Positions 2 through 64,000 of a DNA stretch of 64,000 nt are shown one piece after another (within the stretch, counting starts at the first letter, position 1; each line of letters begins with the position of its first letter). Source of the stretch: Bacteroidota bacterium (lineage in GTDB: Bacteria > Bacteroidota > JABWAT01). The DNA lies in NCBI GenBank assembly GCA_023151185.1, contig JAKLJL010000009.1, forward strand, positions 62,001-126,000, written 5' to 3'. A program made the position numbers and the translations under genes. The notes below the pieces were generated by a model. It did no database searches. It was not told where the DNA came from and worked only from the letters and a program-made list of their open reading frames with translations.

Positions 2-3000
2 TTCACTCAGCCGAACTCATCCTCACCTGTAACCTACCGTTTTTACATGTACGCAGAGGCTGGTACGGGTAGTGGTGGAATAGGTGATGGAACCGGGAAT
101 GATCTTGTAGTCAATGGATCTGTTTCCGCCTCCACCCCCTCAGTCAATCTCTCTGCTGATCTGAATGCTGGAACAGAAGCCGGAGCAACGGTTGTTACCC
201 TGACGGCGACTGCTTCCTCTGCCGTTTCCGGCGCACAAACTGTTGACGTTGCCGTTTCAGGAACTGGAATAACAGCCGGTGATTATTCCCTCGGGGCTTC
301 TTCAATTACAATTGCAGACGGTCAAACAACCGGGACCACCACTTTCACAGTAGTTGATGATGCCGCCATTGAAGGGTCTGAAACCGCAACGGTCACCATT
401 TCAAATCCGTCTTCCGGACTGGTTCTGGGATCAACTTTGTCTCAAAACATTGCCATCACCGACAATGATGCCAACAATGTAAATCTGTCGGCAGATGTAA
501 ATTCTGGTACAGAAGCAGGAACCACTGTAGTTACCCTTACCGCAACCGCATCGGCAGCCGTTACCGGCGATCAAACCGTTGATGTGGCCGTGACAGGAAC
601 CGGAATTACTGCCGGTGATTACACTCTTGGCGCAACTACTATTACCATTTTAAACGGAGCAACGACCGGAACGGTAACTTTTACAATTGTGGATGATGCT
701 GCAATTGAAGGTGCAGAAACTGCAACAATCACCATTTCCAATCCTTCATCCGGAATTGCCCTGGGTTCTACTTTATCACAGAATGTGGCCATTACGGATA
801 ACGATTTTGCAACCTCGGTTCAATTTTCCTCTGCTTCTGCAACAGTCGCTGAAGGAGTTGGAACCACAACTCTTACCTTATCCATTGCAAATCCAAGTGC
901 ATCAACGGCAACAACTGTTGATGTTGCCCTGACCGGCGGTACCGGATCGGCTGCTGATATCAATTCCTACACAACCCAAACTGTGACCTTCCCGGCAAAT
1001 ACCAGCGGAGATCAGACCGTTACTCTGACTGTCACGGATGATGCCCTGGTTGAAGGCTCCCAAACCCTCATTTTTACCCTTCAGAATGTATCCGGCGGGA
1101 ATTCAGCAGCTTTGGGGAGCCAGACCACGCATACCCTGACCGTTACCGACAATGATTTCAATTCGGTTTACCTGAATACAGCCAATGTTGCGGCAACCGA
1201 AAATTTTGATGGAATGGGAACAGCCGGGACTACCTTCCTGCAGGGATGGACTTCGACTGATGCAGGAATGGTAGTTAGTGATGGATCCTCTAATACGGGC
1301 TCTATTTATAATGTTGGAACAGCATCCGCCTCGGATCGTGCATTTGGTTCCCTGGCCGGAACCGTTGTACCTGTTTTTGGAGCATCTCTATTAAACAATA
1401 CCGGATCCACTGTTACAACTTTGGAATTTTCAGGTGTAATGGAACAATGGCGAGCAGGAGATAACGCAGTTGTCGAAACCCTTCCTTTTGAATATAGCAC
1501 AAACGCCACTTCTCTGACGACTGGGACCTGGACTGCTTTCACCTCGATGGACCTTGTTGAAAAACTGACGGGGACAACAACTGCTGCAGCAGTTGATGGA
1601 AACAATGCCGCCAACAGAACGGCAATTTCCGGAACCCTGACCGGACTTTCTGTTGCAAACGGCTCTGAGATCTGGATCAGATGGACGGATACCAACAATA
1701 CGGGTGCTGATGGGCTTTATGCCATAGATGATTTCTCGGTTACTCCGAATCCAAAACCGAAGGTTACGCTTTCAGCTACAGCAAATTCCGGAACCGAAGC
1801 GTCCGGTACTGTTGTGACACTGACTGCAACTGCTTCTTTTGCAGTTACCGGTTCACAAACGGTTGATGTTGCTGTTTCCGGGACCGGGATCACCGGAACA
1901 GACTATTCACTGAGTTCATCTTCAATCACAATTGCGGATGGTGCGACGACCGGAACTGCCACTTTTACCATTTTGGATGACAGTGATGTTGAAGGGGCTG
2001 AAACGGCAACGGTTACCATTTCAAATCCGTCTTCCGGTGTCGCCCTGGGAGCAACCGTTAGCCAAAATGTTGCAATAACTGATAATGACTTTGCAACCAC
2101 AGTTCAGTTTGCTTTAGCCTCCTCTTCGGTTGCTGAAGATGGCGGAACCATTGATTTATCCCTGTCGATTGCAAATCCGAGCGGAAGCACGGCTACAACT
2201 GTTGAAGTAGCCCTGACCTCAGGGTCTCCTGCCGATATCAACAGTTATTCAACTCAAACGGTCACTTTCCCGGCAGGATCTTCCTCTAATCAGACGGTTA
2301 CAATTACGGTAACCGATGATGCTTCGATGGAAGGCAACGAAAATTTAACCTTTACCCTTCAGAACCCTTCGGGTGGAAATGTGGCTGCATTAGGAGCCCA
2401 AACTACCCATACATTGACGATTACAGATAATGACAATGCCTCTATTTCTTTATCAGGTTCTGCAAACGAAGGAACTGAAAACGGTTCGGTTGTGACTGTC
2501 AACCTGACGAACGACACCTTTGTTGATCCTCTGACACCTGCCAACTGGACAGTTACAAACCTTCCTGCCGGTGTTTCAGTCGGTTCTATTGACCGGGTTA
2601 ATGCCACCCAGGTCACCATTACCCTTACCGGTAACAGGACCGATGATTATGATGCAAACCGCAGTCCGGTCGTTTCTGTAAGTCATGAAGAACTGACGGT
2701 TACCGCTTCCGGTACAACTTCTGCCAACTCCGGATTTAACTTCATTGCAACAGATGATGCCGAAAGTATTTCCATTGCCAGCGACGGATCCATAACAGAA
2801 GGAAGTGAGTCAGGTGAAGTTCTGACCGTGACTGTGACCGGGGGAACCCTGGTTTCGACCTTAACTCCGGCGAACTGGGTGATAACCAACGCCCCGGATG
2901 GTGTTACTTTCGGGAGCCCGGTACGGGTCAGTGCCACTCAGGCAACAATTACAATCACCGCGAACCGGACAACTGATTATGACGCAAACGATACCGACCT

Positions 3001-46245: not shown

Positions 46246-46471
46246 AAATACGTATCAAAGGTAGGTGATCGTGTATCTAATGTCAAGACCTGCCTGATCG
46301 GGAAAAGGAAGATTAACTCACTTTCACTATCTGCAGGCTCCCTTAAAGGTTTCTGCAATAATCCATTCCGGGACCGTGCAGGTAACAGAAATTTCTTCTC
46401 AGAAATTGCCGGTCCAATTGTAAAACCCCGCAGACAGACTTAATTTTAGCCGGGCTAACCAATTGGGTGAA

Positions 46472-49400
46472 ATGAAACCTGTCCTAACAATCAGGCTGAT
46501 CCGGCAAAGTTTTCTTATTTTTCTGCTGGCGGCGGTCATTCTGCTTCCTTCCGCATCCGGTCAGAACCCGGTTACCGGCCGGTTTGAAGTAACCAACTGG
46601 ACCATGGCGAATGGTCTTCCGCAAAGCTCCGTCAATGATATCGTCCAGACTCCTGATGGCTTTCTCTGGTTAGCAACCTACAGCGGTCTGGTCCGATTCG
46701 ACGGCCACGCATTTACAGTTTTTAACCGCCTGACTACACCGGGACTTACATCCGACCGTATCCTTCAGATTAAGCCGGATTCGAAAGGAACTCTGTGGGT
46801 TTCGACCGAAAATGGATTTTTCAGGTTTCAGGATGGAGCGTGTGAGCCATTTTTCATCCGGCAGGGGTCCCAGCTTTTCTCGCCGCTGATGGTCACAGAA
46901 GATGAATCCGGCGGAATCTGGGTTTCTGCCAATGGCATTCCTTACCGGTTCAGGGACACTGCATTTGTTCAGGTTGTGCCGGTAAAACGAAATCCGTCCA
47001 GCTTAAAGACGGGCCAGGCCGTGCTCGGACATGAAAAAGCAATATTCCGGACATCCGGGGATACTCTGTTCCAGATAGCCGACTTAACTGACCGGCTGTC
47101 TCACAATATTCAGGACGTCATCGAATTCCCGAAAGGGTCAGGGGTCTATTTTTTTGCAACGAGCGGTGACGGTGCCGGACTGATTCAGAACGGGAAGGTT
47201 GCTCTGTTTACTGAAAAAAACGGGCTGCCGTCTGTCTTTTGCAAGCGGCTGGAAGCCGACCGCCATGGGCAGTTATGGGTGATCTGCTACAACGGCATTG
47301 CCCGCTGGACCGGCACAGGATTTGAGCCTCTGCCGGATTTACCTTCAGAAAGTGAAATTCACTATAGCAGTCTTTTTGAGGATCATGAGGGAAATTACTG
47401 GGTGGGTACACCGGCGCATGGGCTTTACAAATTCAAACCGGTGCTTTTCTCGACCATCGGCAGCGGGCAGGGCCTGAAAAATCAAAAAATGCTGTCCTTA
47501 GTCCGGCTTTATGGCGGAAAGATCCTCTTTTCGACCAATTGCGGGGGGATTTATGAGTGGGATGGCGTCCGGGCTGTTCCTTCGGACGTTAACAGATTTT
47601 TGCCCAATCTGTGTGTGTGGTCGGTTTTTGAAGATTCAAAACGGCGGATCTGGTTTGGGTCCCGTTCTCTGTATCTGACTTCTGATCTTTCAAAAAAGGG
47701 AACTGTTTTCGAAATATCGGAATCCGAAACCGGAAATGAAGTGTTTTCAATTACTGAAGATCAGTCGGGTATGATCTGGATCGGATCTCTTCAGGGCGTT
47801 TTCAGATATGATGGAAAAAACCTGGAGAAATTCACCACTTCAGACGGATTAAGTTATAACGATACCCGGGTGATCTTCCCAGAACCGGATGGTTCGGTCT
47901 GGTTCGGATCCGTTTCGGGGCTTTCCCGGCTGGCAGATGGAAAAATCACGCCGGTTCCGCTCAGGAAAAAAAGTCCGTCAGGGAAAACTCCGGACGAACC
48001 GTATATCCGGGCTATTTTCAGGGATGCTTCCGGGAGTCTGTGGCTCGGGACGTATGGAGATGGTCTTTTCCGGATAAAAGGCGGCAAGATTTCGCAGGTG
48101 ACTGAAAAAGACGGGCTGTTTGACAATATTGTATCCCATTTAATTCAGGATGACTACGGACGGATCTGGATGGGGTCGAACCGGGGCGTTTCCTGGGTTC
48201 ATCTGGAAGATCTGACCGATTTCTGTGACGGCAAACTGGCCCATGTCCGAAACGTCTCCTATGGCACGGGCGACGGAATGACGTCGTCTGAAACCAATGG
48301 TGGGTTCCATCCCTCTGCACTGTCACTTCCGGATGGCCGGTTGTTTTTCCCGACTGTCAGCGGGGTTGCAACCCTTGATCCGTCTGAAGTCAGGATCCAA
48401 ACGGTTCCGCCGCCGGTTGTCATTGAAAAAATTCTGGCATCCGGCCGGGATATCCGGATTTCGGGTCCGCTGGTGTTGAGTCCGGACAGTAACTCTGTTG
48501 AAATCCGGTTTACTGCACTCAGTTTCACTGATCCGCAAAAAGTCAGATTCTGGTATCTTCTGGAAGGTTTCCAGACCGGGTGGTATGATGCCGGAGCCAG
48601 CCGGTCTGCTGTTTTCCAGAACCTTCCGCCGGGAGATTATACCTTCAGGGTAAGGGCGGCGAACCATCAGGGACTGATCAATGAAGCCGGGGTTTCTTTA
48701 CCGCTGAAAATACTTCCGCATTTCTGGCAGACCTGGTGGTTCCGCTCCCTGCTGATTTTTATTTTTGTTACACTCGGTCCGGCGGTTTACTTCTTCCGGA
48801 TCACCCGGCTGGAACGGGAGAAAAAGTTACATGAACGGTTTCTTCAGCAGATGATGCAATCGCAGGAAACCGAACGGCGCCGTATTGCAGCCGAACTGCA
48901 TGACGGACTTGGCCAGCAGATTCTGATCATAAAAAACCGTGCCGATCTGGCCCTGCAGTCCGGACCGGTTTCTGAGACGATGGCCGAACATCTGATTGAA
49001 ATCAGAGACAGTTCGGTTGCCGCCATCGCAGATGTCAGGCAGATTTCACAGGCCCTCAGACCCATGCATCTGGAACAATTCGGGCTTACCGAATCCCTGA
49101 ATGTACTGTGTGAACGACTTCAGAGTGCGTCACCGATAGAATGGAGCTATTATTTTGATCAGATTGACGGCCTGATTTCAAAGGAAAATGAAATCAACTT
49201 TTACCGGATAATTCAGGAAGGAATCAATAACATTCTGAAACATTCCAAAGCGAACCAGGCCTCGGTCATGGTCCGGGTTCTGGATGGTCAGATTCAAACG
49301 ATGGTCTGGGACGACGGAATTGGCTTTAATCCGGAAGAAAAAAACCAATCCGTCGGGATGGGACTTTCGGGGATGGCGGAACGGGCAAAAACCCTGACTC

Positions 49401-49477
49401 CTGCTGCTCTGACCCTGATTTCGTCACCGGGGAACGGAACGATCATAAAATTTAACATTCCTGTGCAGAAAAACTGA
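46472..49477 (+). CDS. Propeller-type sensor histidine kinase (NarL-family, Y_Y_Y)
   Basis: 1001 aa from ATG 46472 (TTG 46463 possible). Signal peptide/first membrane segment at about 8-30. Periplasmic two-component propeller repeats (GFLWLATYSGLVRFDG, GTLWVSTENG and others) run to about 640. A Y_Y_Y domain lies at 660-745 and a membrane helix at about 755-776. The HisKA_3 domain has His810 in ELHDGLGQ and the HATPase domain occupies about 905-995 with DDGIGFN. It senses an extracellular signal and phosphorylates the regulator encoded next. The stop overlaps the regulator start (TGATG). Confidence 0.92.
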   Translation: MKPVLTIRLIRQSFLIFLLAAVILLPSASGQNPVTGRFEVTNWTMANGLPQSSVNDIVQTPDGFLWLATYSGLVRFDGHAFTVFNRLTTPGLTSDRILQIKPDSKGTLWVSTENGFFRFQDGACEPFFIRQGSQLFSPLMVTEDESGGIWVSANGIPYRFRDTAFVQVVPVKRNPSSLKTGQAVLGHEKAIFRTSGDTLFQIADLTDRLSHNIQDVIEFPKGSGVYFFATSGDGAGLIQNGKVALFTEKNGLPSVFCKRLEADRHGQLWVICYNGIARWTGTGFEPLPDLPSESEIHYSSLFEDHEGNYWVGTPAHGLYKFKPVLFSTIGSGQGLKNQKMLSLVRLYGGKILFSTNCGGIYEWDGVRAVPSDVNRFLPNLCVWSVFEDSKRRIWFGSRSLYLTSDLSKKGTVFEISESETGNEVFSITEDQSGMIWIGSLQGVFRYDGKNLEKFTTSDGLSYNDTRVIFPEPDGSVWFGSVSGLSRLADGKITPVPLRKKSPSGKTPDEPYIRAIFRDASGSLWLGTYGDGLFRIKGGKISQVTEKDGLFDNIVSHLIQDDYGRIWMGSNRGVSWVHLEDLTDFCDGKLAHVRNVSYGTGDGMTSSETNGGFHPSALSLPDGRLFFPTVSGVATLDPSEVRIQTVPPPVVIEKILASGRDIRISGPLVLSPDSNSVEIRFTALSFTDPQKVRFWYLLEGFQTGWYDAGASRSAVFQNLPPGDYTFRVRAANHQGLINEAGVSLPLKILPHFWQTWWFRSLLIFIFVTLGPAVYFFRITRLEREKKLHERFLQQMMQSQETERRRIAAELHDGLGQQILIIKNRADLALQSGPVSETMAEHLIEIRDSSVAAIADVRQISQALRPMHLEQFGLTESLNVLCERLQSASPIEWSYYFDQIDGLISKENEINFYRIIQEGINNILKHSKANQASVMVRVLDGQIQTMVWDDGIGFNPEEKNQSVGMGLSGMAERAKTLTPAALTLISSPGNGTIIKFNIPVQKN

Positions 49478-50124
49478 TGGAAAAACTGTCTGTCCTTATT
49501 GCAGATGACCACGAACTGGTCAGAAAGGGACTCAAGCATTTTCTTGAGACCAACGGGGCACATAAAATTACTGAAGCAGAAAACGGCAGGGAAGCCTATC
49601 ATCTGATCCGGGAACTTAATCCGGAAATTGCCATTCTGGATATCCAGATGCCGGAAATGACCGGTGTTGACGTAGCTTCTCTGCTGGCAGGAGAAAATCA
49701 CCCGGTCAGGCTGATTCTGCTGACCATGTTCCGTGATGAGGCCGTTTTTAACCGGGCGCTGGATTTAGGCGTCAGGGGATACATTCTGAAAGAAAATACC
49801 GTTTCCGAAATCCTGACCTGCATCCGGAAAGTCAGGGAAGGTGGACATTATATCAGTCCCGTACTGACTGAATTTCTTCTGGCCAGAACCACCCGTCAAA
49901 GTTCAGGAGCCCGCCAACCGTCAGGTCCGGATCTGCTTACGGCTGCCGAGGCCCGGGTTCTCAAACTGCTGGCGACCATGAAAACCAACCAGGAGATTGC
50001 AACTGAACTGGGAGTCAGTATCAAAACGGTCCATAATCACCGCAATAACATCTGCAACAAACTGGATCTGAGAGGCGCCCATGCTCTGCTCAGATACGCC
50101 ATCGAAAACGCCGACCGGATTTAG
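49477..50124 (+). CDS. LuxR/NarL-family response regulator
   Basis: 215 aa. Receiver domain 1-120 with phosphorylation site D55 in AILDIQMPEMTG. C-terminal LuxR helix-turn-helix: LTAAEARVLKLLATMKTNQEIATELGVSIKTVHNHRNNICNKL. It is the partner of the upstream kinase, sharing one base. The next gene is a giant surface protein with a repeated dyad element in front, which is the suggested binding site. Confidence 0.95.
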   Translation: MEKLSVLIADDHELVRKGLKHFLETNGAHKITEAENGREAYHLIRELNPEIAILDIQMPEMTGVDVASLLAGENHPVRLILLTMFRDEAVFNRALDLGVRGYILKENTVSEILTCIRKVREGGHYISPVLTEFLLARTTRQSSGARQPSGPDLLTAAEARVLKLLATMKTNQEIATELGVSIKTVHNHRNNICNKLDLRGAHALLRYAIENADRI

Positions 50125-50156: not shown

Positions 50157-50206
50157 TTCTAGGTATTTCTACCCAGAAAAATGAGTACTTCTTCCTATTC
50201 CCGCCC
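50157..50206. promoter_or_regulatory. Repeated upstream element copy A (likely LuxR-type operator)
   Basis: 50 bp, matching 61197-61246 in 47 positions. It contains the dyad CTAGGTA-TTTC-TACCCAG (50159-50176) and then ATGAGTACTTCT and a pyrimidine-rich CCTATTCCCGCCC. Two of the three differences lie in the dyad spacer, so the arms look selected. It is 174 bp before the start of the first giant gene and 32 bp after the LuxR-type regulator gene. Confidence 0.65.
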
Positions 50207-50380
50207 GTGATAAATTGCCGGATCTTCACTTTATCGAAAAAGGTGAAGTCTGACTGGGAATCTGCTCCCTGTCAATTAACCCGTTCCGGAAACGACTACA
50301 AAGAAAAGCCGGACTGAGTTCATCCAACTCAGAGAAATAAAAGCTGTTTCTGCATCCGTACACAACTTATCGGGGAACCC

Positions 50381-53300
50381 ATGAAAAAACTGTTACAAAT
50401 CTGGTTGTTGCTGATTGTCACCCTTCTGCTCACAGAAGCAAGAGTTACAGCACAACCCACCGTCACTTCTGTGACACCGGCAATGAATGCCATCAACCAA
50501 TCTGCATCCGCCAACATTGTAGTTCAGTTCAGTGAAGCCATGGATCAGGCAACCCTGACCGCCTCCACCATCAAAGTTTACGGAAGTTTTACCGGTTATC
50601 ATGCCGGTTCCCTCTCATACAATGCCGGTACGTATGCTGCCACAATTAATCCATCCACCGATTTTGACCCGGGTGAGCTGGTCACCGTTACGTTAACAAC
50701 CGGTATTACCAATGGCTCCTCAGTTGCCCTGTCCACTGCCTACAGCTGGAACTTTACCACTGCCACCCCGCCCAGTGGAGAGTCCTACACATCCACCAAT
50801 TATACAGTTGGATATGGACCGAGGGAAGTCCGGGTTGCCGATGTGGATAATGACGGTGACAACGATCTGGTGACAGTCAATTATGACTGGGATAATGCCT
50901 CCGTTCTGAAAAATAACGGAGACGGAACCTTTGCTGCCAAGTCAGATTACCCGTTGGGAGACAATCCGACTCAGATTACAGTTGCAGATCTCAATAATGA
51001 TGGATATATCGACATTATTTCAACAAATAGTTTCGGTCTTTCCCTTTCAGTCCTGATCAATAACGGGAATGGGACATTTGCCGCCAAAGTTGATTATTCT
51101 ACGCCTTATCAGTCACGCAGTGTCATTGCTTCTGATGTCAATGGCGACGGATTTCTTGATCTGCTCGCCCCGACCGAAAGAGATGATATTGTCTCTGTTT
51201 ATCTGAATAACGGCAACGGCACCTTTGCTGCTGATGTGCAATACCCGACCGGGGATGGACCCTTCGGTATAACCGCAGCAGATCTTGATGGTGATGGAGA
51301 CCTGGATTTGATTACATCCAATTATGCAACCAAAACCATTTCGGTTCTGCCCAATCTGGGCAATGGAACCTTTGGCAGCAAAACCGATTACAGCACCGGA
51401 GAGGCAGGCCGGCATCTGACCACTGCTGATGTGGATGGTGATGGCGATGCCGATGCGATCGTTGCCATTATTTCGGGTGCTTCAAGCGGAAACATTGCGG
51501 TCCTGAAAAATAATGGGGATGGAACCTTCGCTGCCAAAGTCGATTATACCATGCCTTTCGGCGCCTTTTACCCAACGGCACAGGATGTGGATGGTGATGG
51601 AGATATCGATATTCTCTGTGCCAGTTCTTCACCGGGTAACAGTGTGTCCCTGCTGAAAAATAACGGCAACGGCACCTTTGCTGCCAAAGTTGATCTGGTC
51701 ACTGGTTTCAGCACCTTCAGTGTGGCTGCAGCCGATCTGGATGGTAACGGGACGATTGATTTAGCCACCGGGCAGTCAGGAACCAACCAGGTTACTGTTA
51801 AACTGAACATTGTTCCTCCGGCTGTTTCTTCAACGGCTCCCACTGCGCAGGCCACCGATGCTGCCACCTCTGGCAACATTACCATCACCTTCGACCAGGC
51901 TATGTTTGCCGATTCCCTGAATTCCAGAACCATCCGGGTAACCGGTTCTCAATCGGGAAATCATGGCGGCAGTATTTCCTATAACAGCGGAACGTATACC
52001 GCCACCTTAAACCCGGCCTCTGATTTTGCGCCGGGGGAAAAAGTCACTGTTGTGGTGACCACCGGAGTTCAGAACAGTCAACGGGCTGCCATGACTTCTC
52101 CTTTTGCATTCCAGTTTAATACAGTTCTGAAAGGCGATCTGCTGTCGGACAAGAATTCGAAGTTCTTCCCCGGAACCAAGCCCTATGGCGTGGCTCATGC
52201 CGATTTTGATTCTGACGGCGATCTGGATATGATCTTTCCGAATGCAGAAAAAGACAGCATCACCATTCTGTCCAATGACGGATCGGGAACCTTCACCATC
52301 GCAACCACCCTGTTCACCGGGGCCTCCACCCTGCCAAACAGTCTATCCGTTGCCGACTTTGATGGAGATGGTGACATGGACTTTGTCATCACCCAGTACT
52401 ACAGCAACGGCATCAGTGTTTACCTGAACAATGGCTCCTTCTCCTTTACCAGCACCTTCTATGGCGCACAAAGCGGAACCACCACCTCTGCTATCGGTGA
52501 CTATGATGGCGATGGAGATATCGATATTGCAACCTTCAACCGGATGGTACCCAGTCTTTCTGTCTTCATGAATAATGGAGATGGCACCTTTGCTTCTGCT
52601 GCAAACAAATCGGTGTTTACAGGATCCCTGAACAAACTACGTTCTGGCGATGTGGACAATGATGGCGACCTCGATCTTTTAGTAGGTGGGGAGCACCAAA
52701 CGGTTTATCTTTTGAAAAACAACAGCAACGGAACCTTTTCAACCGAAGTCAATCTTGGCTTTTCCTCTGTATCTGATTTTGATCTCGCCGATCTGAATGA
52801 GGACGGAAAACTTGATTTGATTACTGTTCACCAAACCAGCAATAAAATAACAGTTTCAAAAGGTAACGGAAACGGGACTTTTGCATCCGGAACGGATTTC
52901 ACATTCACCAACCCATCTTCTGTTACGTTTATGGATCTGGGTTACGATGGGGACCCTGATATTATTGTTGCAGCTCAGGATGCTGATTTATATGATGAAA
53001 TCCATTACCTCACCAATGATGGAACAGGCAGTTTCACGAAAGAGTATGGGTTTTATGCTCTGCAGACTGGTTATGAATATTCCTATGCCGGATATCCTGT
53101 CCTTTCCACGGCTGATATCAACGGGGATGGCGATCTGGATCTGGTTCAGACCAGCCGGTTAAACAGTTATGCGGCCATTAATCAGTCCTCTGATTTTGTA
53201 AGGGTGACATCCTTTTCACCCGCATCCAATGCGATTGATGTATCTCCTTCAGGTTCTATTTCTGCCACACTGAACTATGATGCAAATCCGGTTACGATCA

Positions 53301-56300
53301 ACAGTACTACGGTGACACTGGTTGGTTCCGGAGCCGGCCGGATTGCCGGATCGGTTTCCTATGATTCACCCAGCCGGATGGTAACGTTCGATCCTGCATC
53401 CGATCTGAAACCCGGGCAGACCTACATGTTCTCAGTATCTGATTCGGTTACAAGCCAGAATGGAACTCATCTGTACGCCGGACGGTCCACCGAATTCACC
53501 GTGGCCACTGCAGGAGATGGCAAAGGTCATTTTGTGTTGGGCAGTACCCTCACGTTCGATAACGGGACGTATCCCGAACAATCAGTTGTTGGTGATCTGA
53601 ATGGAGACGGACATCAGGATGTTGTGGCCACAACCGGTTATTACGGAACCGGATATGTGCTGCTGAACAACGGAGATGGAACCTTTGCAGCTCCTGTTTC
53701 ACTGGGTTATTCAAAGGCCTACATTGCCCATCTGAGACTGGCCGATATGGATTCTGATGGCGACCTGGATGTGGTTATTGGCCGATCCGGTAATTCAAGT
53801 CTGGATGTGTTATCCAATAACGGCAGCGCATCCTTCACAGAGGCGGTTTCCTACGGGTCATTCGCTACTTATTATGATAACCTCGATGCAAAGGATCTCA
53901 GCAGCGATGGCTTTGCAGATCTGATCCAGCGAAACGGAGGTTCAAGTGGCCCGATTTTCGCAATCAATAATGGCGACTGGACTTTCAACGGCGATATCAA
54001 ACAAATAGACTGGAGTTCATCCGACCTCGAAATCACTGACATTGATCAGGATGGCGACCAGGATTTTGTCATGTCGTACAACCAAAACGGTTATAAACGG
54101 TTAGGTATTGCACTCAATGAGCGAACCGATAATTATGGCTACCAGAAATTTGGCACCCCTTATTTCATTGATACTGACCTTGCACCCAAACTGATTAAGG
54201 CGGCTGATTTTGATGCTGATGGAGATGTGGATTTTGTTGCATCTTCCACCGATGGCCTGTCCTTTTTTATACTCAAAAATAATGGGAACGGAACGTTTTC
54301 TACCCAGCCGGCCGTTCAGGTTGAACTGGCAATTAATTCGATCAAAGTCGGTGATCTGAATGGCGACGGCGACCTTGATCTGGTGTTTACAAGCAGTGAG
54401 CACGACAGCAACAGCAAAACATACATCATGGCTTACTACAATTCCGGCACCGGAACGTTCAGTAACTCGGCTTCCTTTACGATTCCGGAGTACTATTTCA
54501 GAAGTCTGAATCTGGCAGATGCCGATTCGGATGGCGATCTGGATTTTGTTACGATTTACGGTGGATATGCCGGATCAGATTTTCTGCTGAAACTGGGTGT
54601 TTATGAAAACGGCGCAGCCGTTTCACCGGCTACTGCTGCAAGCAGCCTGTCCTCCGGCCAGAATCTGGGATCAAAAATTACGTTAACCTGGACAAAGGGT
54701 GACGGAAGCCGGAATCTGGTTGTTGTCAAAGCCGGGAGTGCAGTCGATGCCACACCGGTTAACAACGCAAATTACACGGCTGAAGCCGAGTTCGGTTCTG
54801 GATCTGATCTGGGTGGCGGAAATTATGTTGTATATACCGGAGGCGGCAATTCTGTTACTCTGTCGGGTTTATCATTAAATACACAATACCATGTGGCAGT
54901 TTTTACATTCAATGGAAATGGCGGAGACGAGGTGTACTATACAACCGATGCTCCATCTGCAACCTTCACCACAAACAGCAAAGACGGTTACCCATTTGAA
55001 ACCACTGCCGGTAAGGCATTGTCCTTTAATGGCTCTTCATCCGCTGCTGAATTTTCCTATGAAACCGAGTTGCCCAAAGACATCACCATACAGATGTGGG
55101 TAAAAGCATCTGATTCTTCGGATGTGGCTGCCTTCTTCGTCAGAGGTGACTCACAGGGGATTTCTGAAAGCAGCGGACGGACGATTGGACCGGATGGTAA
55201 ACGCAGTTCTGATGGAAAAGATACCCGGAAACCCAAATTGGCGAAAACAACTTCAGGTGGTAATGCTGAGTACTACTATCCCATCCATCTTGGAATCAAC
55301 GGCGGTCATTTGTATGCCAGTATCTATGATGATGATACTGAAGACCCGGTTACTCTGACTGGCGCCGATGTTGTCAGAAGCAATCAATGGTACCATGTTG
55401 CACTAACCATGCATCGGGATTCCGACAATTATTCAAACGGAACTTTTTATGTAAATGGTAATGCCGTAAGTTCCTACAGCAACGTTTATTATAATGACTA
55501 TGATTACAGCTTCGTCTTAGGGTATGATGGGGATGTGTACTTCCAGGGTGAGGTTGATGAACTTCAGATCAGGGAGAAAGTTCTGACCACGCAGGAAATC
55601 CGGTCTGGCATACATACCACTTTAAGTGGCTTTCCTGAAAAGGTGCTGGGTTACTGGCAATTTAATGACGGAACCGGAACAACGGCCTCACAAGCAATCA
55701 ACAGCCAAAAATTTTATCTGCAGGATGTTTCATGGGTTACCTCAACCATTCCTGTCGGAACCGGGGCAACTACCACTACCACCGGGGTCACGACAGGTGA
55801 ACAAACGGTCGGGAATGCAAAACTGAGTATGGGTGATGGTTTTGATAACCCGGTTGATGTGGTTGTGTCTGAGGTAACTGCCGAACCGAACTCCTGGCCG
55901 GCAGGCTATTCTTCTTCAGTCGGAGGGAAGTATTTTGTGATCGAATTATTCGGCGATCCGGGAACGTTTTCGGTGGATCTTACCCTGAATTTTGGACCCG
56001 GTGTTCTGGATGAACTGGTTAACACCAATCCGCAGTCCATGAAATTGTACAAACGCAGTTCAACTTCCTCCGGCGCGTGGACCGATCTTGGAGGTGCTTC
56101 TTCTGCTGATTACGAAACTGGACTTGTTACCTGGACCGGGATTACCTCTTTCAGTCAGTTTCTGCCGGTACTCGATGTCTCCTCTCTGCCTGTTGAATTG
56201 TCCTCATTTGCTATCAGCCATACCAGAGGAATGATCAACCTGAACTGGTCAACGGCATCAGAGAGCAATAATGCCGGATGGGAAATTGAAGAGCGGTTAA

Positions 56301-56755
56301 CCACCGGTCAGGACAGAGGTACTTTTAAACCGGTTGGTTTCGTTGCGGGTAACGGCACAACCACCGAGGCACAGGCTTATTCATTCAGTATCTCTGCTGC
56401 CAAAGCCAATCTGGCTGAATTCCGCCTGAAACAGATTGATACAGACGGCAAGACGTCGTACTCAAGAATTCTTTCTGTGGATCTGAAACCGGCAGTATTT
56501 GAGCTGTCACAGAACTATCCGAATCCGTTCAATCCAACAACAACCATTCAGTATTCGGTTGCGAAAGAATCAAAAGTTTTTCTGACACTTTACAATGCCC
56601 TCGGACAGAAAGTAAAAACCCTGGTTCAGGAAAATCAGCCTGCCGGATTTTACTCGGTTCAGCTCAATGCATCTGATCTGTCATCCGGAATGTATTTCTA
56701 TGTACTGGAAGCCGGTTCATTCAAATCAGTTAAGAAGCTGACGTTGCTGAAGTAA
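50381..56755 (+). CDS. Giant secreted FG-GAP/VCBS, Big_5 and LamG protein with sorting domain
   Basis: 2124 aa. Signal peptide at 1-25 (ending TAQPT). Three repeats of [Big_5 Ig-like domain + FG-GAP/VCBS set]: Big_5 at about 26-125, 479-583 and 940-1043; FG-GAP blocks at 144-476, 587-934 and 1050-1410 with DxDGDGDxD calcium motifs and NNGDGTFAAK turns. An FN3-like domain lies at 1418-1535, a LamG-like domain at 1540-1757, and the sorting domain at 2043-2124 (YPNPFNP, ending KKLTLLK). Propeller folds of this type bind ligands or matrices. Inferred role: large adhesin or binding protein on the cell surface. Confidence 0.88.
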   Translation: MKKLLQIWLLLIVTLLLTEARVTAQPTVTSVTPAMNAINQSASANIVVQFSEAMDQATLTASTIKVYGSFTGYHAGSLSYNAGTYAATINPSTDFDPGELVTVTLTTGITNGSSVALSTAYSWNFTTATPPSGESYTSTNYTVGYGPREVRVADVDNDGDNDLVTVNYDWDNASVLKNNGDGTFAAKSDYPLGDNPTQITVADLNNDGYIDIISTNSFGLSLSVLINNGNGTFAAKVDYSTPYQSRSVIASDVNGDGFLDLLAPTERDDIVSVYLNNGNGTFAADVQYPTGDGPFGITAADLDGDGDLDLITSNYATKTISVLPNLGNGTFGSKTDYSTGEAGRHLTTADVDGDGDADAIVAIISGASSGNIAVLKNNGDGTFAAKVDYTMPFGAFYPTAQDVDGDGDIDILCASSSPGNSVSLLKNNGNGTFAAKVDLVTGFSTFSVAAADLDGNGTIDLATGQSGTNQVTVKLNIVPPAVSSTAPTAQATDAATSGNITITFDQAMFADSLNSRTIRVTGSQSGNHGGSISYNSGTYTATLNPASDFAPGEKVTVVVTTGVQNSQRAAMTSPFAFQFNTVLKGDLLSDKNSKFFPGTKPYGVAHADFDSDGDLDMIFPNAEKDSITILSNDGSGTFTIATTLFTGASTLPNSLSVADFDGDGDMDFVITQYYSNGISVYLNNGSFSFTSTFYGAQSGTTTSAIGDYDGDGDIDIATFNRMVPSLSVFMNNGDGTFASAANKSVFTGSLNKLRSGDVDNDGDLDLLVGGEHQTVYLLKNNSNGTFSTEVNLGFSSVSDFDLADLNEDGKLDLITVHQTSNKITVSKGNGNGTFASGTDFTFTNPSSVTFMDLGYDGDPDIIVAAQDADLYDEIHYLTNDGTGSFTKEYGFYALQTGYEYSYAGYPVLSTADINGDGDLDLVQTSRLNSYAAINQSSDFVRVTSFSPASNAIDVSPSGSISATLNYDANPVTINSTTVTLVGSGAGRIAGSVSYDSPSRMVTFDPASDLKPGQTYMFSVSDSVTSQNGTHLYAGRSTEFTVATAGDGKGHFVLGSTLTFDNGTYPEQSVVGDLNGDGHQDVVATTGYYGTGYVLLNNGDGTFAAPVSLGYSKAYIAHLRLADMDSDGDLDVVIGRSGNSSLDVLSNNGSASFTEAVSYGSFATYYDNLDAKDLSSDGFADLIQRNGGSSGPIFAINNGDWTFNGDIKQIDWSSSDLEITDIDQDGDQDFVMSYNQNGYKRLGIALNERTDNYGYQKFGTPYFIDTDLAPKLIKAADFDADGDVDFVASSTDGLSFFILKNNGNGTFSTQPAVQVELAINSIKVGDLNGDGDLDLVFTSSEHDSNSKTYIMAYYNSGTGTFSNSASFTIPEYYFRSLNLADADSDGDLDFVTIYGGYAGSDFLLKLGVYENGAAVSPATAASSLSSGQNLGSKITLTWTKGDGSRNLVVVKAGSAVDATPVNNANYTAEAEFGSGSDLGGGNYVVYTGGGNSVTLSGLSLNTQYHVAVFTFNGNGGDEVYYTTDAPSATFTTNSKDGYPFETTAGKALSFNGSSSAAEFSYETELPKDITIQMWVKASDSSDVAAFFVRGDSQGISESSGRTIGPDGKRSSDGKDTRKPKLAKTTSGGNAEYYYPIHLGINGGHLYASIYDDDTEDPVTLTGADVVRSNQWYHVALTMHRDSDNYSNGTFYVNGNAVSSYSNVYYNDYDYSFVLGYDGDVYFQGEVDELQIREKVLTTQEIRSGIHTTLSGFPEKVLGYWQFNDGTGTTASQAINSQKFYLQDVSWVTSTIPVGTGATTTTTGVTTGEQTVGNAKLSMGDGFDNPVDVVVSEVTAEPNSWPAGYSSSVGGKYFVIELFGDPGTFSVDLTLNFGPGVLDELVNTNPQSMKLYKRSSTSSGAWTDLGGASSADYETGLVTWTGITSFSQFLPVLDVSSLPVELSSFAISHTRGMINLNWSTASESNNAGWEIEERLTTGQDRGTFKPVGFVAGNGTTTEAQAYSFSISAAKANLAEFRLKQIDTDGKTSYSRILSVDLKPAVFELSQNYPNPFNPTTTIQYSVAKESKVFLTLYNALGQKVKTLVQENQPAGFYSVQLNASDLSSGMYFYVLEAGSFKSVKKLTLLK
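56413..56464 (+). repeat. Near-identical 3' segment, copy 1
   Basis: 52 bp of coding DNA, differing from 60572-60623 at only two bases, inside the C-terminal part of this gene. It marks recent exchange between the two giant genes. Confidence 0.75.
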
Positions 56756-56775
56756 GAACAAATAAAGGAAATTGG

Positions 56776-56805
56776 CACTCCTGATTGATGTCGGGAGTGT
56801 TCATT
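56776..56805 (+). terminator. Terminator after the 2124-aa protein
   Basis: CACTCCTGA / TCGGGAGTG stem with a 6-nt loop and T-rich tail, 20 bp after the stop codon. Confidence 0.55.
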
Positions 56806-56960
56806 TTCGAAGATGTAAAACAAGTTTTGGTTGCTTGTTTGTTTAAACTGACAAAGGTGCAGTTTTTTAAAAAAACCTGATCAATATGTTGACTTCATAT
56901 CCATCAGGGTAATACTAAAATAGAATTAAATTAAAGCTGAAGAAGGAAAAAGGGGATCCA

Positions 56961-59900
56961 ATGAAATATATCTTTAATACCATTTTTACACTATTTATGA
57001 TAAGCGGATTGAATGCTGAGGCACAGCCGGTAGTGAGTTCTGTTATTCCTTCAAAGAATGCGATAAATATCAGCAAGTCATCTGATATTTCAGTCACCTT
57101 CGATTCTGAAATGAAGGAGGAAACGTTGACTGCATCAAATATCAAAATATCCGGTTCAGTAACCGGGCCTGCATCAGGTTTATTTTCTTATTCTTCAGTA
57201 ACTAAAACCGTCACTTTTAATCCGGAAGAAGATTTTAACCATGGCGAAATGGTGACAGTTATTTTGACCACAGGGATTAAAAATACAGAAAATGTTGCCT
57301 TGACTGAATCATTTAACTGGAGTTTTACGGTATCTGCAATTATTGGTGGAGAATTTGAACCTGCTGTCAACTATGGAACCGGATCAAATCCCCGAGGTTT
57401 AGTCAGTGGTGATGTAAATAATGATGGGCATCCTGATTTAATTATTTCAAATTATGACGGGAATAGTATTTCAGTGCTATTGAATAACGGAGATGGGACT
57501 TTTGCATCAAAAGTTGATTACTCAATTGGATCATATAGTTTTGGCGTTTCAGGTGGTGCTGTCCTTGCAAAAGATGTGAATAATGATCACTATATTGATT
57601 TGATAACCGCTAATTATGGCTTAAATAATGTGGCTGTATTTTTAAATAATGGGGATGGAACCTTTGCTGCCAAAGTTTTTTATGCGACCGGGACTCATCC
57701 CTTCAGGATAACCTCATCTGACCTAAATGGGGATGGATATTATGATCTAATTACGGCAAATTATGAAACGGCAAACAACGTGTCAGTTTTACTGAATAAT
57801 GGGGATGGTACTTTTGCAGGGAGCGTTACTTATTCTGCAGGAACATATCCCAATGACATTGAAAGCGGGGATCTGAATAATGATGGTGCGCCCGATATCG
57901 TAATCGCCAATTATGATTCACACGATTTGTCAGTTTTTTTTAATAACGGGGATGGTACTTTTGGCCCAAAAACAACCTATGCGGTTAGTTATGATGGCCA
58001 GGGTATTGCAGTTGCGGATATTGATGGCGATGGGGATAATGATTTAATCGCAGAAATTGATGTGTATGATTATATCGAGGTACTAAAGAACAATGGTGAT
58101 GGAACATTTGCTCCTAAGGTATCTTATTGGACGGGTGGAACGAGTTCCTTCAAACCATCAATTTCAGACATTGATGGAGACGGGGATCTTGATGTCATGG
58201 TGGTTCAGGATTACAGCAATAAAATAACAATACTCCGAAATAATGGTAACGGTTCATTTGCGGGAAAAGAGGAGATTAATTTATCACTGAAACCGAGTGG
58301 GTTGGTAAGTACCGATTTAAACGGAAATGGAAACATGGATTTTGTTGTTATAAACAGCAATAACAACACTATTTCGGTTTTTTTTAATAAAATTCCGGAA
58401 GTAAAAATTTCTCAAACAAATCCTTCAAAGAACTCAACAACACACTCAATTTCTGAACCGGTTAAGTGTACGTTCAACCAAAAAATGAATGGATCCTCGT
58501 TCACACAAAATTCAATTTCTGTTTATGGATCATTTTCAGGAAAGCGTACCGGAAATATTTCCTATGACACCGGAACAAAAACGGTTACTTTCAATCCGGA
58601 TGATAATTTCTCTTATGGAGAATGGGTTACCGTTGTAATTAATGAAGGAATTGCCAGCGAACTAAGTATTAACCTCCCCAAGCCAATCGTTTGGCAATTC
58701 AGAACAGGTTCAGCAGAAGGAAATGGGCTTTCCTTGTCTGCTGAATCCTCTGTAACAACACAATCCAACCCAAAATCAATTGTCCCGGTAAACGTTGATA
58801 ATGATTCAGATATTGATTTGGTTAGTGTGACCGGAAGTAATGTATCAGTTAATTATAACTCAGGTAATGGTACATTTAATTCGCAAAATTCTTATCAGGC
58901 AGGATCTGGTCCGATTGGAGTAACAGGAAGCGACATTAATAGTGATGGTTTTCTTGATTTGATAGTTGCAAATGGTGATGAAACAACAATTTCAGCATTC
59001 ATTAACAATGGCGACGGAACTTTCGGTGATCAGGTTAAACATACATTGGATTTTTATCCGACTTGTATTTCTTCTGGAGATGCAGATGCAGATGGCCTGA
59101 TTGATATTATTGTTGCCGGATGGGGCGGAGGTATTAAAAGCGGAATTGTATTTAAAAATAATGGAAATGGTACACTTACGAAAAAACCCTATTTTTATAT
59201 TTCCACAAGCCCAAGTGAGTTGGCCGTTGCTGACTTAAACAACGATGGTATTTTGGATGTAATCTCATCAGATTCATACAGTAAAATCTTTATTCTGACC
59301 GGAAATGGCGACGGTACATTCGGAGATGGTGTTTTTGATGTAGATGTTACTTTCGATGTTGGTTCCAATCCGCGAGGTATTCATACAGTTGATTTTGATA
59401 AGGATGGTGATGTTGATATTCTGAATACAAATATGGTCTCTGGAACCATCTCTGTCTTAAAAAATAACGGAAATGGTACCTTCGCAACAAAGGTAGATTA
59501 TTCTACCGGTGAAAATCCGATGAGAGTTAATTCTGCTGATATGGATGGTGATGGTTTAATAGACTTAGTTGTCACAAACTATTCCAGCAATAATTTCTCG
59601 GTATTTCTAAATAATGGAAATGGAACATTTGCTGATAAAACAGATTTCAGTTCTTTTTATTATTCAGAATACGGATCGTTTGGCCTGGCTCCTGCTGACT
59701 TGGATGGTGATGGTGATATTGATATTGCTAAAACAAATAACAATGCCTCCAATATTGTTGTCTACCTGAATTCAACAGTTCAAAATCCAGAAAGTGGATC
59801 ATTTACAAACACCACAATAAACTCACCAACTACACTTAACGGGGATTTGAACATTTCCGGCACCTTAACAATTGGTGCCCAGATCGCCACCGGGTCCAAT

Positions 59901-60914
59901 ACCATTAACCTGGGAGCCACCGGTTCACTTACCGGCGAGACACCTGCCAATTACATAGTTGGTACCGTTCAGGCAAGCAAAGAAATTTCCAGCCTGCAAT
60001 CCAACATTGCCGGACTTGGTATTTCTATCGATCCGCAATCCAACAACCTGGGATCAACTACCATTAAACGGGAAACCGGAACCGCAGAAAATTCATCGTC
60101 CATCAAACAGATCTGGACGATTACCCCAACTACCCAACCCTCCGGGCCGGTAACCGTAACCCTTTCCTGGCCGTCAACCAATGACAATGGGATCAACCTG
60201 AATGACCTGGTCGTGTTTAAATCGGAGGATGGGGAAAATTGGAATGTGGTTACGGCAACCATTAATAAGGATACTGATCCCCGGACAGCTACTTTTACTA
60301 TTACCTCTTTCTCTGAGTTTACCATTGGGGAAACAGGCTCACTTCCCGTTGAACTGGTCCAATTTTCTGCCGAAGCATCCGGAGACCGCGTGAACCTGAC
60401 CTGGTCAACTGCCACCGAAACCAACAACAGTGGATTTGAAGTGGAAATGCAGAAGTCAGAAGCCGGAAGTCAGAAGTCAGGATGGACGAAAGTAGGTTTT
60501 GTCGCTGGTAAGGGGACCACGACTGAAGCTCAAACCTATTCCTTTTCGGTTTCTGGTGTTAACGCCAATCAGGCTGAATTCCGCCTGAAACAGATTGATA
60601 CGGATGGCAAGACGTCGTACTCACAAATTCTTACGGTGGATCTGAAACCTGCTGAATTTGCCCTGGAACAGAACTATCCGAATCCTTTCAATCCGGCAAC
60701 AACCATCCGGTATTCCCTGGCAGCAGAAAGCAGGGTTTCGCTGAAGGTTTACAACTCATTGGGCCAGCAGGTGAGAAACCTCGTTCAGGCCTCACAACCG
60801 GCCGGATTTTATTCCGTCCCTCTGAATGCAGCAGATCTCTCCTCGGGGGTTTATTTCTACATTCTGGAGGCAGGATCCTTCAAGTCTGTGAAGAAATTGA
60901 CGCTGGTGAAATAA
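56961..60914 (+). CDS. Giant secreted FG-GAP/VCBS and Big_5 protein with sorting domain
   Basis: 1317 aa. Signal peptide at 1-22 (ending EAQP). Two units of Big_5 plus FG-GAP repeats (Big_5 at 23-125 and about 481-585), then the module at 59790-60345 shared with the protein at 2-4792, and a sorting domain (from about 1233, YPNPFNP, ending LTLVK). The first part is more AT-rich than the end: composition changes near 59,870. Same family as the upstream giant; probably a surface adhesin. Confidence 0.87.
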   Translation: MKYIFNTIFTLFMISGLNAEAQPVVSSVIPSKNAINISKSSDISVTFDSEMKEETLTASNIKISGSVTGPASGLFSYSSVTKTVTFNPEEDFNHGEMVTVILTTGIKNTENVALTESFNWSFTVSAIIGGEFEPAVNYGTGSNPRGLVSGDVNNDGHPDLIISNYDGNSISVLLNNGDGTFASKVDYSIGSYSFGVSGGAVLAKDVNNDHYIDLITANYGLNNVAVFLNNGDGTFAAKVFYATGTHPFRITSSDLNGDGYYDLITANYETANNVSVLLNNGDGTFAGSVTYSAGTYPNDIESGDLNNDGAPDIVIANYDSHDLSVFFNNGDGTFGPKTTYAVSYDGQGIAVADIDGDGDNDLIAEIDVYDYIEVLKNNGDGTFAPKVSYWTGGTSSFKPSISDIDGDGDLDVMVVQDYSNKITILRNNGNGSFAGKEEINLSLKPSGLVSTDLNGNGNMDFVVINSNNNTISVFFNKIPEVKISQTNPSKNSTTHSISEPVKCTFNQKMNGSSFTQNSISVYGSFSGKRTGNISYDTGTKTVTFNPDDNFSYGEWVTVVINEGIASELSINLPKPIVWQFRTGSAEGNGLSLSAESSVTTQSNPKSIVPVNVDNDSDIDLVSVTGSNVSVNYNSGNGTFNSQNSYQAGSGPIGVTGSDINSDGFLDLIVANGDETTISAFINNGDGTFGDQVKHTLDFYPTCISSGDADADGLIDIIVAGWGGGIKSGIVFKNNGNGTLTKKPYFYISTSPSELAVADLNNDGILDVISSDSYSKIFILTGNGDGTFGDGVFDVDVTFDVGSNPRGIHTVDFDKDGDVDILNTNMVSGTISVLKNNGNGTFATKVDYSTGENPMRVNSADMDGDGLIDLVVTNYSSNNFSVFLNNGNGTFADKTDFSSFYYSEYGSFGLAPADLDGDGDIDIAKTNNNASNIVVYLNSTVQNPESGSFTNTTINSPTTLNGDLNISGTLTIGAQIATGSNTINLGATGSLTGETPANYIVGTVQASKEISSLQSNIAGLGISIDPQSNNLGSTTIKRETGTAENSSSIKQIWTITPTTQPSGPVTVTLSWPSTNDNGINLNDLVVFKSEDGENWNVVTATINKDTDPRTATFTITSFSEFTIGETGSLPVELVQFSAEASGDRVNLTWSTATETNNSGFEVEMQKSEAGSQKSGWTKVGFVAGKGTTTEAQTYSFSVSGVNANQAEFRLKQIDTDGKTSYSQILTVDLKPAEFALEQNYPNPFNPATTIRYSLAAESRVSLKVYNSLGQQVRNLVQASQPAGFYSVPLNAADLSSGVYFYILEAGSFKSVKKLTLVK
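60572..60623 (+). repeat. Near-identical 3' segment, copy 2
   Basis: Counterpart of 56413-56464, with 50 of 52 identical bases. Confidence 0.75.
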
Positions 60915-61296
60915 TTGAACATGCCTTATTCTGTCCTTCGGCACTGCTCAGAGACCATGGCCCATAAGTGTCAGGTAACATAATCAGGTGACTGCCCTTC
61001 GGCTCCGCCTGGTCTCTGGGCTTACCGAAGGGCTGTGACCGCTTTAAGTCACCGGATTTTTCCCCGGTTCAGCTTTGAAACCCAAATTGGCGGGCCCTTG
61101 CCTAACCTGCCCTGGCGAGCCGGCAAAAAGTCAAAAAACACGCAGCGTTTCCGGGTACTCATAAAAATAGTGTGAGGAAACTCACATTGGCCTGTTTTCT
61201 AGGTACTACTACCCAGTAAAATGAGTACTTCTTCCTATTCCCGCCCTTATTTATTTCCCGGATATTCATACGATCATAAAAAGTTGAGTTTACCTG
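60915..61296. other. 382-bp non-coding gap with nested inverted repeats
   Basis: Arms CAGAGACCA (60949-60957) and TGGTCTCTG (61010-61018), plus GCCCTTCGG (60994-61002) and CCGAAGGGC (61025-61033), overlap each other. A TGTGAG-GAAA-CTCACA hairpin with a GNRA loop is at 61171-61186, and element copy B follows at 61197. No open reading frame is convincing. Confidence 0.6.
61197..61246. promoter_or_regulatory. Repeated upstream element copy B (likely LuxR-type operator)
   Basis: Dyad CTAGGTA-CTAC-TACCCAG at 61199-61216, then the same ATGAGTACTTCT and pyrimidine tract as copy A. It ends 50 bp before the stand-alone receiver gene. A GTACTCAT at 61155-61162 is the reverse complement of the ATGAGTAC at 61221. 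Confidence 0.65.
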
Positions 61297-61980: not shown

Positions 61981-64000
61981 ATGAAACAGGTTAACGTTCA
62001 AAGGAAGATACCATCAGACTATTTCAAGAAGATATTTTTTGTATTCTCTGTGCTGATTTTAGCTTTTGGTGTTGCGGTGGCCGGGAAAATTTCAAATAAT
62101 AAAAGCCCGGCAGGAAAAACCAGTCAGTCACAGTTTAAAAAATCTGATTCACTATCCGATGGTGATTTAGATCCAACGTTTGGTAGCGGCGGAAAAGTAA
62201 CCGCAGATTTTGGCTCATTCGGGCAGGTTCGGGATGTCGTAATCCAGTCAAACGGGAAAATTGTTGCCGGTGGTTTTAATAGTTCCGGAATGTTTGCGAT
62301 GCGTTTTAAAACCAACGGTACCATCGATAGCTCTTATGGAACCAATGGTATTGCATCGGCAGGTATAAATCAATCGTACAAAACCCTGATTCAATCTGAT
62401 AATAAAGTCATTCTTGTTGGTTATGACGGTAGTAATGTTCCAACTGCAGCCCGGTTAGATACTACCGGAGCGTTGGATGCAAGTTTCGGAACTAACGGAG
62501 TCGCGATATTGAGCGCCTTAGGCGGAGGATATTGTTATGGTGCAGCTTTGCAATCTGACGGAAAAATCTTATTGACAAGCAGAAGCTATAATGGCAGTAA
62601 TTATGATGTGATGATAGCCAGACTGAATACTAATGGTACGCTGGATACTGGTTTTAACAGTTCAGGTTATATTTCTGTTGATTTCGGCAATTGGGAAGAT
62701 TCATACGGAGTTGCTCAGCAGTCAGACGGTAAAATCATCTTTTCGGGTGCTTCAACCAACATTGGTAACGATTTCAGATATTTAGCGATTGGCAGATTAA
62801 AAAGTGATGGTACTTTGGATTCGACAGGATTCGGAACCAATGGAAAGGTTTTAACATTATACGGTGCTTCCGTTTCAGTAGGCCCATGGAATATTTACGA
62901 GCAAAGTGATTCGAAAATTGTAGTATCAGGATATTCTGATTCAAAATTTTTGCTATCCCGATATGATGCATCCGGAAATTTAGATACCGGATTTAATGGA
63001 ACCGGTAAAGCTACTATCGATTTCGGTTACACTGCATACGGTTATTCAGTGGCATTTCAAACCGACGGGAAAATTTTAATTGGTGGTGGCAGTGAAAATG
63101 GCGTTGACGCCGATTTTGCCCTTGCACGTGTAAAAACCAACGGAATAATTGATTCTACTTTCGGAATTAATGGTAAAGTTACAACCGACTTTGGCGGTAG
63201 CAATTATGCCTATTCAGTTAAAGTTCAGCAGGATGGAAAAGTTGTTCTGGCGGGCTATACCGGATCCCAAACTGCAGCATTGGTCAGATATTATGTGCAG
63301 GAAGTAGTCCCAACGGTTCCTTCCGTTACAGAAATCAGTCCGGCTTCGAATGAAAATTCCGTGGTGACCGATCAGGCTATAACCATTACCTTCAGCGAGG
63401 CAATGAATGCTGCAACCCTGACAACGGGAACGATTCGGGTAACCGGCTCAAAGTCAGGCAGTTACAGCGGTGTTGTCAGCTATGATGCCGGTACAAAAAC
63501 AGCAACGTTTACTCCATCAATGGATTTTCTGGTAGGGGAAAAGGTAAGTGTAACGGTAACAACCGGTGTGGAAAGTGCCTCCGCTGTTGCCCTTGAAGAT
63601 TCATACACATGGTCATTTACAATAAAAACAGCACCTGCCACAGCCAGTTTGGTTCAGAACAATCTTCAGGTGGGCGGAGCAATAAACAGTGGACCCAACG
63701 GAGTTAATGTTTCTGATGTTGATCGCGATGGAGATTTAGATCTTGTCTGGAACTATGGACGTTTTATGGTCTCCATCAGAAACGGATCGGTCTATGATCC
63801 TGTGGTTGTATACAATGGAGCAACAGCAAAACAAAGCGTCACAATTGATCTTAACAACGATGGATATCCGGATCTGGCAGGGTTGACCCAGAAAAATTCA
63901 ACAGACAGTCTGGTTGTTTTTTTTAATGACGGAGACGGGACCTTTACTTTCAACAACCGGTACAGTGTTAATGCAGATACCTACTATGGTTATTTTACTG
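61981..64000 (+). CDS. Giant delta-60/Big_5/FG-GAP protein (3' partial)
   Basis: The frame is open from ATG 61981 to the right edge (673 codons), so the end is missing. GAGGAAAGG precedes the ATG. Hydrophobic segment at about 18-37. Seven delta-60 repeats (LDPTFGSGGKV.., TIDSSYGTNGI.., ALDASFGTNGV..) cover about 62-440; then a Big_5 domain (about 445-540, SEAMNAATLTTG) and an FG-GAP block (VSDVDRDGDLDLVW). This is the third member of the giant family next to the two others. Surface protein; sorting domain not seen because of the window edge. Confidence 0.8.
   Translation, partial: MKQVNVQRKIPSDYFKKIFFVFSVLILAFGVAVAGKISNNKSPAGKTSQSQFKKSDSLSDGDLDPTFGSGGKVTADFGSFGQVRDVVIQSNGKIVAGGFNSSGMFAMRFKTNGTIDSSYGTNGIASAGINQSYKTLIQSDNKVILVGYDGSNVPTAARLDTTGALDASFGTNGVAILSALGGGYCYGAALQSDGKILLTSRSYNGSNYDVMIARLNTNGTLDTGFNSSGYISVDFGNWEDSYGVAQQSDGKIIFSGASTNIGNDFRYLAIGRLKSDGTLDSTGFGTNGKVLTLYGASVSVGPWNIYEQSDSKIVVSGYSDSKFLLSRYDASGNLDTGFNGTGKATIDFGYTAYGYSVAFQTDGKILIGGGSENGVDADFALARVKTNGIIDSTFGINGKVTTDFGGSNYAYSVKVQQDGKVVLAGYTGSQTAALVRYYVQEVVPTVPSVTEISPASNENSVVTDQAITITFSEAMNAATLTTGTIRVTGSKSGSYSGVVSYDAGTKTATFTPSMDFLVGEKVSVTVTTGVESASAVALEDSYTWSFTIKTAPATASLVQNNLQVGGAINSGPNGVNVSDVDRDGDLDLVWNYGRFMVSIRNGSVYDPVVVYNGATAKQSVTIDLNNDGYPDLAGLTQKNSTDSLVVFFNDGDGTFTFNNRYSVNADTYYGYFT

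Follow-up and report, generated by a model that had tools for sequence, protein, structure and literature searches.

Two 50-bp repeats in the window, the 64,000-nt stretch of a 3.74-Mb Bacteroidota genome (G000) analysed here, are best explained as the operator-promoters of a two-component regulon, a reading to which, mechanistic steps included, we assign a probability of roughly 0.86. Judged from sequence, its regulator most likely activates giant secreted surface proteins and, along with them, a small receiver. The combination, for the control of giant T9SS proteins, is conserved and previously unreported in the literature searched (coverage of subscription journals was thin), which held no description of the operator motif or of the module; its components are ordinary.

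The locus comprises a sensor kinase, a response regulator, secreted proteins and a stand-alone receiver (Table 1, positions of the whole window). The kinase translation contains the HisKA_3 motif AAELHDGLGQ. The regulator belongs to the NarL/LuxR type by both its domains and its phospho-acceptor residues (D10, D55, T83 and K105 in the translation); it gives full-length structure matches, with VraR-type regulators, DesR and NarL as its best solved relatives. The C-terminal sorting domain PF18962 marks secreted proteins 1 and 2 as T9SS cargo.

As the original prediction described, the two copies agree at 47 of 50 bases (mismatch offsets 9, 11 and 20), and when they are aligned two of the three mismatches fall in the 4-bp spacer of the dyad. 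Both copies are intergenic: copy A begins 32 bp past the regulator stop codon, while 50 bp separate the end of copy B from the receiver gene downstream and 286 bp separate copy B from the preceding gene. Beyond the 50 bp, a weak similarity (15/25 bases) continues into a −7-like box. A 41-bp core pattern had two matches in the window, and none of 100 dinucleotide shuffles gave one. Genome-wide, copies A and B were the only matches to the element, and relaxed patterns with 3 mismatches added none; a single dyad searched at 3 mismatches gave about as many matches as the control or fewer, and is thus uninformative alone. No element lies directly upstream of protein 2 or of further FG-GAP protein genes, which, like the presence of just two copies in the genome, weighs against the preferred reading.

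Table 1. Features of the window and of related loci.
Feature	Position	Strand	Description
Sensor histidine kinase	46463..49477	+	Reg_prop beta-propeller, Y_Y_Y, HisKA_3, HATPase_c; all four Pfam domains above cut-off
LuxR/NarL-type response regulator, putative binder	49477..50124	+	Receiver PF00072 and GerE HTH PF00196, above Pfam cut-offs
Regulator recognition helix	residues ~181-195		SIKTVHNHRNNICNK
Element copy A	50157..50206	+	First 50-bp repeat
Copy A strong upstream dyad	50159..50176	+	CTAGGTA-TTTC-TACCCAG; family consensus TAGGTA-N4-TACCTA
Copy A weak downstream dyad	50181..50198	+	ATGAGTA-CTTC-TTCCTAT; 22 bp centre to centre from strong dyad; column conservation in 42 copies
Copy A predicted −7 box	50221..50228	+	GATCTTCA; conserved nAnnTT at fixed spacing in 42 copies; predicted start ~50233
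Giant secreted protein 1, 2124 aa	50381..56755	+	FG-GAP repeats, Big_5, laminin-G-like domain, T9SS C-terminal sorting domain (Pfam)
Large secreted protein 2, 1317 aa	56961..60914	+	FG-GAP repeats, Big_5, T9SS sorting domain (Pfam)
Element copy B	61197..61246	+	Second 50-bp repeat
Copy B strong upstream dyad	61199..61216	+	CTAGGTA-CTAC-TACCCAG
Copy B weak downstream dyad	61221..61238	+	ATGAGTA-CTTC-TTCCTAT
Copy B predicted −7 box	61261..61268	+	GATATTCA; conserved nAnnTT at fixed spacing; predicted start ~61273
Stand-alone receiver, 115 aa	61297..61644	+	Canonical acceptor residues (Pfam; alignment of 18 family receivers)
Further secreted protein, start of gene	61981..64000	+	DUF5122 propeller, Big_5, FG-GAP (Pfam); full 1086 aa in G000:C27, past window end
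Small cysteine-rich protein	L075:7722-8015
Small cysteine-rich protein	L093:7733-8026
Small cysteine-rich protein	L087:9929-10243	−
Paralogous double-dyad operator	L094:10420-10620
Paralogous double-dyad operator	L095:10330-10530
Paralogous double-dyad operator	L096:10680-10900

A mismatch-tolerant search of related genomes recovered the same element elsewhere. With a 38-bp consensus that included dyads 22 bp apart, 17 of the 395 genomes searched in the phylum gave a match (reversed control, 0). Relatives carry one to four copies per genome; they belong to the Balneolaceae, to Ignavibacteria-like MAGs and to the same family as the window. The aligned copies give the consensus TAGGTA-N4-TACCTA followed by TGAGTA-N4-TnCCTA, with centres 22 bp apart. 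The dyad originally described is real but just the first half of the operator; the second half, 22 bp downstream, is a weaker dyad and comes close to repeating the first directly. The ATGAGTACTTCT that the earlier search pattern placed after the dyad turned out to be the left half of this second dyad and no start codon. Both dyads are conserved, with no insertion or deletion between them, in a non-redundant set of 42 copies less than 75% identical to one another. Written as heptamers, the operator consists of four half-sites (ATAGGTA, TACCTAT, ATGAGTA and TnCCTAT) in alternating orientation with an 11-bp period. NarL and NarP recognise TACYYMT heptamers in a 7-2-7 arrangement. The proposed closeness to NarL-type sites holds for the half-sites, since TACCTAT and TACTCAT (ATGAGTA reversed) both match TACYYMT and the regulator belongs to the NarL family; it fails for the arrangement, which is 7-4-7 with the 11-bp alternating period and a 4-bp spacer in the aligned copies.

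Broader pattern searches were less specific. The exact long pattern had no match among the genomes and viral contigs because it lies too near the window's own variant, and a degenerate pattern matched 39 stretches, some of them isolated look-alikes in Treponema, Deltaproteobacteria and Bacteroides MAGs that are not linked to the module. In one Treponema MAG, an unrelated bacterium, four TAGGTAA-type dyads follow one another in tandem, spaced by exactly 22 bp (L128:3770-3873).

The element travels with the regulator. All 17 element-positive genomes encode a close homologue of the window regulator (49-100% identity, E<=1e-64), as against one of the 20 Balneolaceae lacking a strict element match (G045) at the same E value, and G045 carries the element after all, with two consensus mismatches. 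Thus the element is present in all 18 sampled genomes that encode the close regulator and in none of the 19 sampled Balneolaceae that do not. Even with G045 scored as negative, Fisher's test gives P = 1e-9 for these 37 genomes, which are MAG-like and related rather than independent, Balneolaceae being the family of most element-positives. Co-inheritance through a shared locus accounts for part of this co-occurrence. In G142, however, the regulator and two strong copies are on separate contigs, so that the association is more than physical linkage. The copy that does adjoin the regulator in G142 is degenerate (5 mismatches), a point against the reading. Comparative genomics supports the proposal that the element is a binding site of the adjacent LuxR-type regulator, predicted to control giant surface proteins.

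Placement was read from 50 copies in loci examined in full. None lies inside an ORF, and the next gene is on the same strand for 48; the two exceptions are near-palindromic arrays of ambiguous direction. Twenty-four copies stand directly ahead of a stand-alone receiver and 16 directly behind the regulator gene, the remainder being upstream of giant or PKD/PA14 surface proteins, a kinase gene or a small cysteine-rich protein. The usual order is a kinase (Reg_prop, Y_Y_Y, HisKA_3), LuxR-type regulator, element, receiver and giant protein with a T9SS C-terminal domain. Copies are confined to target loci, the opposite of the random or intragenic placement that had been named as refuting. The receiver does adjoin copy B as described; it is, more exactly, normally the first gene of the controlled unit. 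The expectation of more copies before sorted-protein genes was borne out in relatives and found no further instance in the window's genome, where the small regulon envisaged for giant surface proteins is supported as two predicted units.

The target proteins carry T9SS sorting domains or sorting-type C-termini. PF18962 occurs in targets of G262, G186, G290 and G199 as well, and some PKD/PA14 targets have no sorting domain. In Balneola, the giant T9SS-type proteins under the element reach 7,511, 7,433 and 6,921 aa as single open frames (L071 + L072, L079 + L080 and L075 + L076, respectively). An assignment of PKD and M28-peptidase neighbours as PorP/SprF was rejected by Pfam. Elsewhere, a copy precedes a conserved small cysteine-rich protein (CSYC...CQTC, ~80 aa) located 3′ of the giant gene. 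The nearest relative, G003, has the order kinase, regulator, element, receiver and giant protein 1; in the window, receiver and giant protein have instead come apart, with one element copy for each. Giant protein 1 of the window is 82% identical to its G003 counterpart (L077:11320-17691), whereas identity is far lower for the regulator (65%), receiver (62%) and kinase (~49-57%). Transfer or repeat homogenisation of giant protein 1 is a possible explanation.

Downstream of the dyads, at a distance of exactly 23 bp, the copies share a second conserved feature, nAnnTT (columns 62-67). In the 42 copies, column 63 is A in 41, column 66 is T in 35 and column 67 is T in 40. Columns 43-61, between the second dyad and the box, are unconserved in the same copies, which provides an internal control against mere relatedness. 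The peak information of the box is 1.39 bits, compared with at most 0.43 in 500 rotations of the downstream sequences. Columns 39-41, at −33, read TTG in most copies and TTC in the window copies, a departure that weighs against the preferred reading; a scan for a −10 TATAAT gave no positional peak. The Bacteroidota −7 box, TAnnTTTG, spans −12 to −5 (PMC9723704). In sequence, the nAnnTT box resembles it, and from this likeness we predict the starts given in Table 1; with the box conserved 23 bp downstream, the predicted dyad centres then fall near −65.5 and −43.5 relative to the start.

This architecture is reminiscent of the Bordetella fha promoter, where BvgA dimers occupy inverted heptads every 22 bp on one DNA face, with a strong site upstream, weaker sites downstream and the last abutting −35, and where the gene controlled encodes a large secreted surface protein (PMC7250471). 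The element likewise has 22-bp centre spacing, a strong-then-weak order, a large secreted protein as predicted target and a proximal dyad at −33; taking the predicted start, that dyad abuts the −35/−33 region at a fixed distance from the −10/−7 position. The element differs in having two dyads where BvgA has three to six, a different half-site, a Bacteroidota-type core promoter, a simple kinase with a Reg_prop sensor, and targets of the type IX rather than the two-partner pathway. By this comparison, the Reg_prop/HisKA_3 kinase would sense a signal through its propeller and drive phosphorylation of the adjoining regulator, which would then bind as two dimers on one DNA face. Binding at the strong distal dyad would seed occupation of the weak proximal dyad, and the regulator would recruit RNA polymerase to a poor −33/−7 promoter at fixed spacing. 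Copy A would drive giant protein 1 and perhaps protein 2, and copy B the stand-alone receiver and perhaps the next secreted protein, with the receiver feeding back on the kinase.

The same site could serve the adjacent regulator mainly as a repressor, or as an on/off switch overlapping the promoter, and the weak dyad does touch the −33 region, where a repressor could act too. We consider this unlikely: the core promoter is downstream of both dyads, its −7 box is degenerate, with the first T not conserved, and a strong distal site followed at 22 bp by a weak proximal one is the pattern by which BvgA activates (PMC7250471). Less probable still is that the copies are the mere footprint of a recent duplication or of a mobile or REP-like repeat with no regulatory role. 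The window copies are indeed more alike than the family consensus demands, down to a shared CCCGCCC tail; against this, the element recurs at equivalent positions across several families, with constrained arms, free spacers and a fixed promoter distance, its copies are few and confined to target loci, and a promoter that was duplicated is still a promoter. We give least credence to a role of the dyad in RNA, whether in a leader or as a terminator behind the regulator gene. Copy A does follow the regulator gene and its dyad could form a hairpin of 6-7 bp, but no T-run follows the dyad, copy B is 286 bp from the gene before it, and the near-direct repetition of the dyads does not fit; the predicted start, moreover, lies downstream of the element and would leave it out of the target mRNA. 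An Rfam scan of the region found no family at gathering score, only sub-threshold chance matches.

Under the preferred reading as an activated operator-promoter, the receiver may be a brake on its own kinase, by analogy with Osp/CckA of Rhodobacter. There, the gene for a single-domain receiver carries an operator of its own system's response regulator, and the receiver, activated by that regulator, inhibits its kinase (PMC9430884). The receiver here is also single-domain, with its gene under its own system's predicted operator, and a feedback brake would agree with its recurrent place at the head of controlled units; the kinase and regulator families differ, and the inhibition tested for Osp is carried over here by analogy. 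The main alternative to such a brake, which we hold to be doubtful yet clearly more plausible than those above, is that the receiver is an output acting on the T9SS motor, as has been proposed for the CheY-like domain of PorX. That domain interacts with the T9SS motor protein GldL in F. johnsoniae (PMC10951265), and the receiver gene is usually co-directional with a T9SS cargo gene. Set against this are the direct Osp/CckA precedent and the lack of T9SS machinery genes in the loci read. PorX/PorY-SigP of Porphyromonas and Flavobacterium is likewise a two-component system of the same phylum that regulates T9SS-related genes; PorX, however, is a CheY-HBD-PglZ protein that controls machinery genes, whereas here a LuxR-type regulator is linked to cargo genes and a receiver.

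The recognition helix is near-constant among close regulators (KTV[HQ]NHR). Three paralogous systems of the window's own genus (G001, G002 and G000:C11) have KTTETHR instead, and ATCAGGG/CCCTGAT dyads occupy the same intergenic gap, exactly 23 bp before ATCTTT; a search with this second-family pattern found just one copy at 3 mismatches. The sequences are suggestive of helix and half-site changing together while the geometry is kept, as a single switch confined to a clade of three related paralogues. A search for the same dyads behind more distant regulators, covering 32 further genomes, turned up mostly unrelated ones. In L147 and L167, TTACGTA-N4-TACGTA dyads stand behind NarL-type regulators whose helix is TVETHR, a hint of a common GTA-N4-TAC core with variable flanks. 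In Fulvivirga (L115 and L120), a regulator of 28% identity keeps the VHNHR helix, and the kinase-regulator pair adjoins a TTAGGTA-N4-TACCTAA tandem site, which in L115 is followed by a receiver gene; these sites share the dyads and not the −7 spacing, and were excluded from the statistics.

More tentatively, and with somewhat more doubt than confidence, the system could form a self-contained surface-remodelling switch spread over several classes, with one operator and its own receiver for each giant T9SS unit, the receiver feeding back on the kinase or gating the secretion motor, pulse-like expression, and duplicated systems insulated by the joint helix and half-site change. If so, these very costly proteins would be expressed in a pulse-like way, and duplicated systems of unchanged promoter geometry would work side by side in a cell as separate switches. 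Little studied as these bacteria are, they commonly encode T9SS surface proteins several thousand residues long, and the literature searched held no paper on the activation of such giants. An operator, a promoter and a regulator can now be predicted for them from sequence, which links them to a Reg_prop sensor and a conserved receiver, and culturable hosts exist (Balneola sp. EhC07). The matched change of helix and half-site offers a starting point for a specificity code of LuxR-type regulators.
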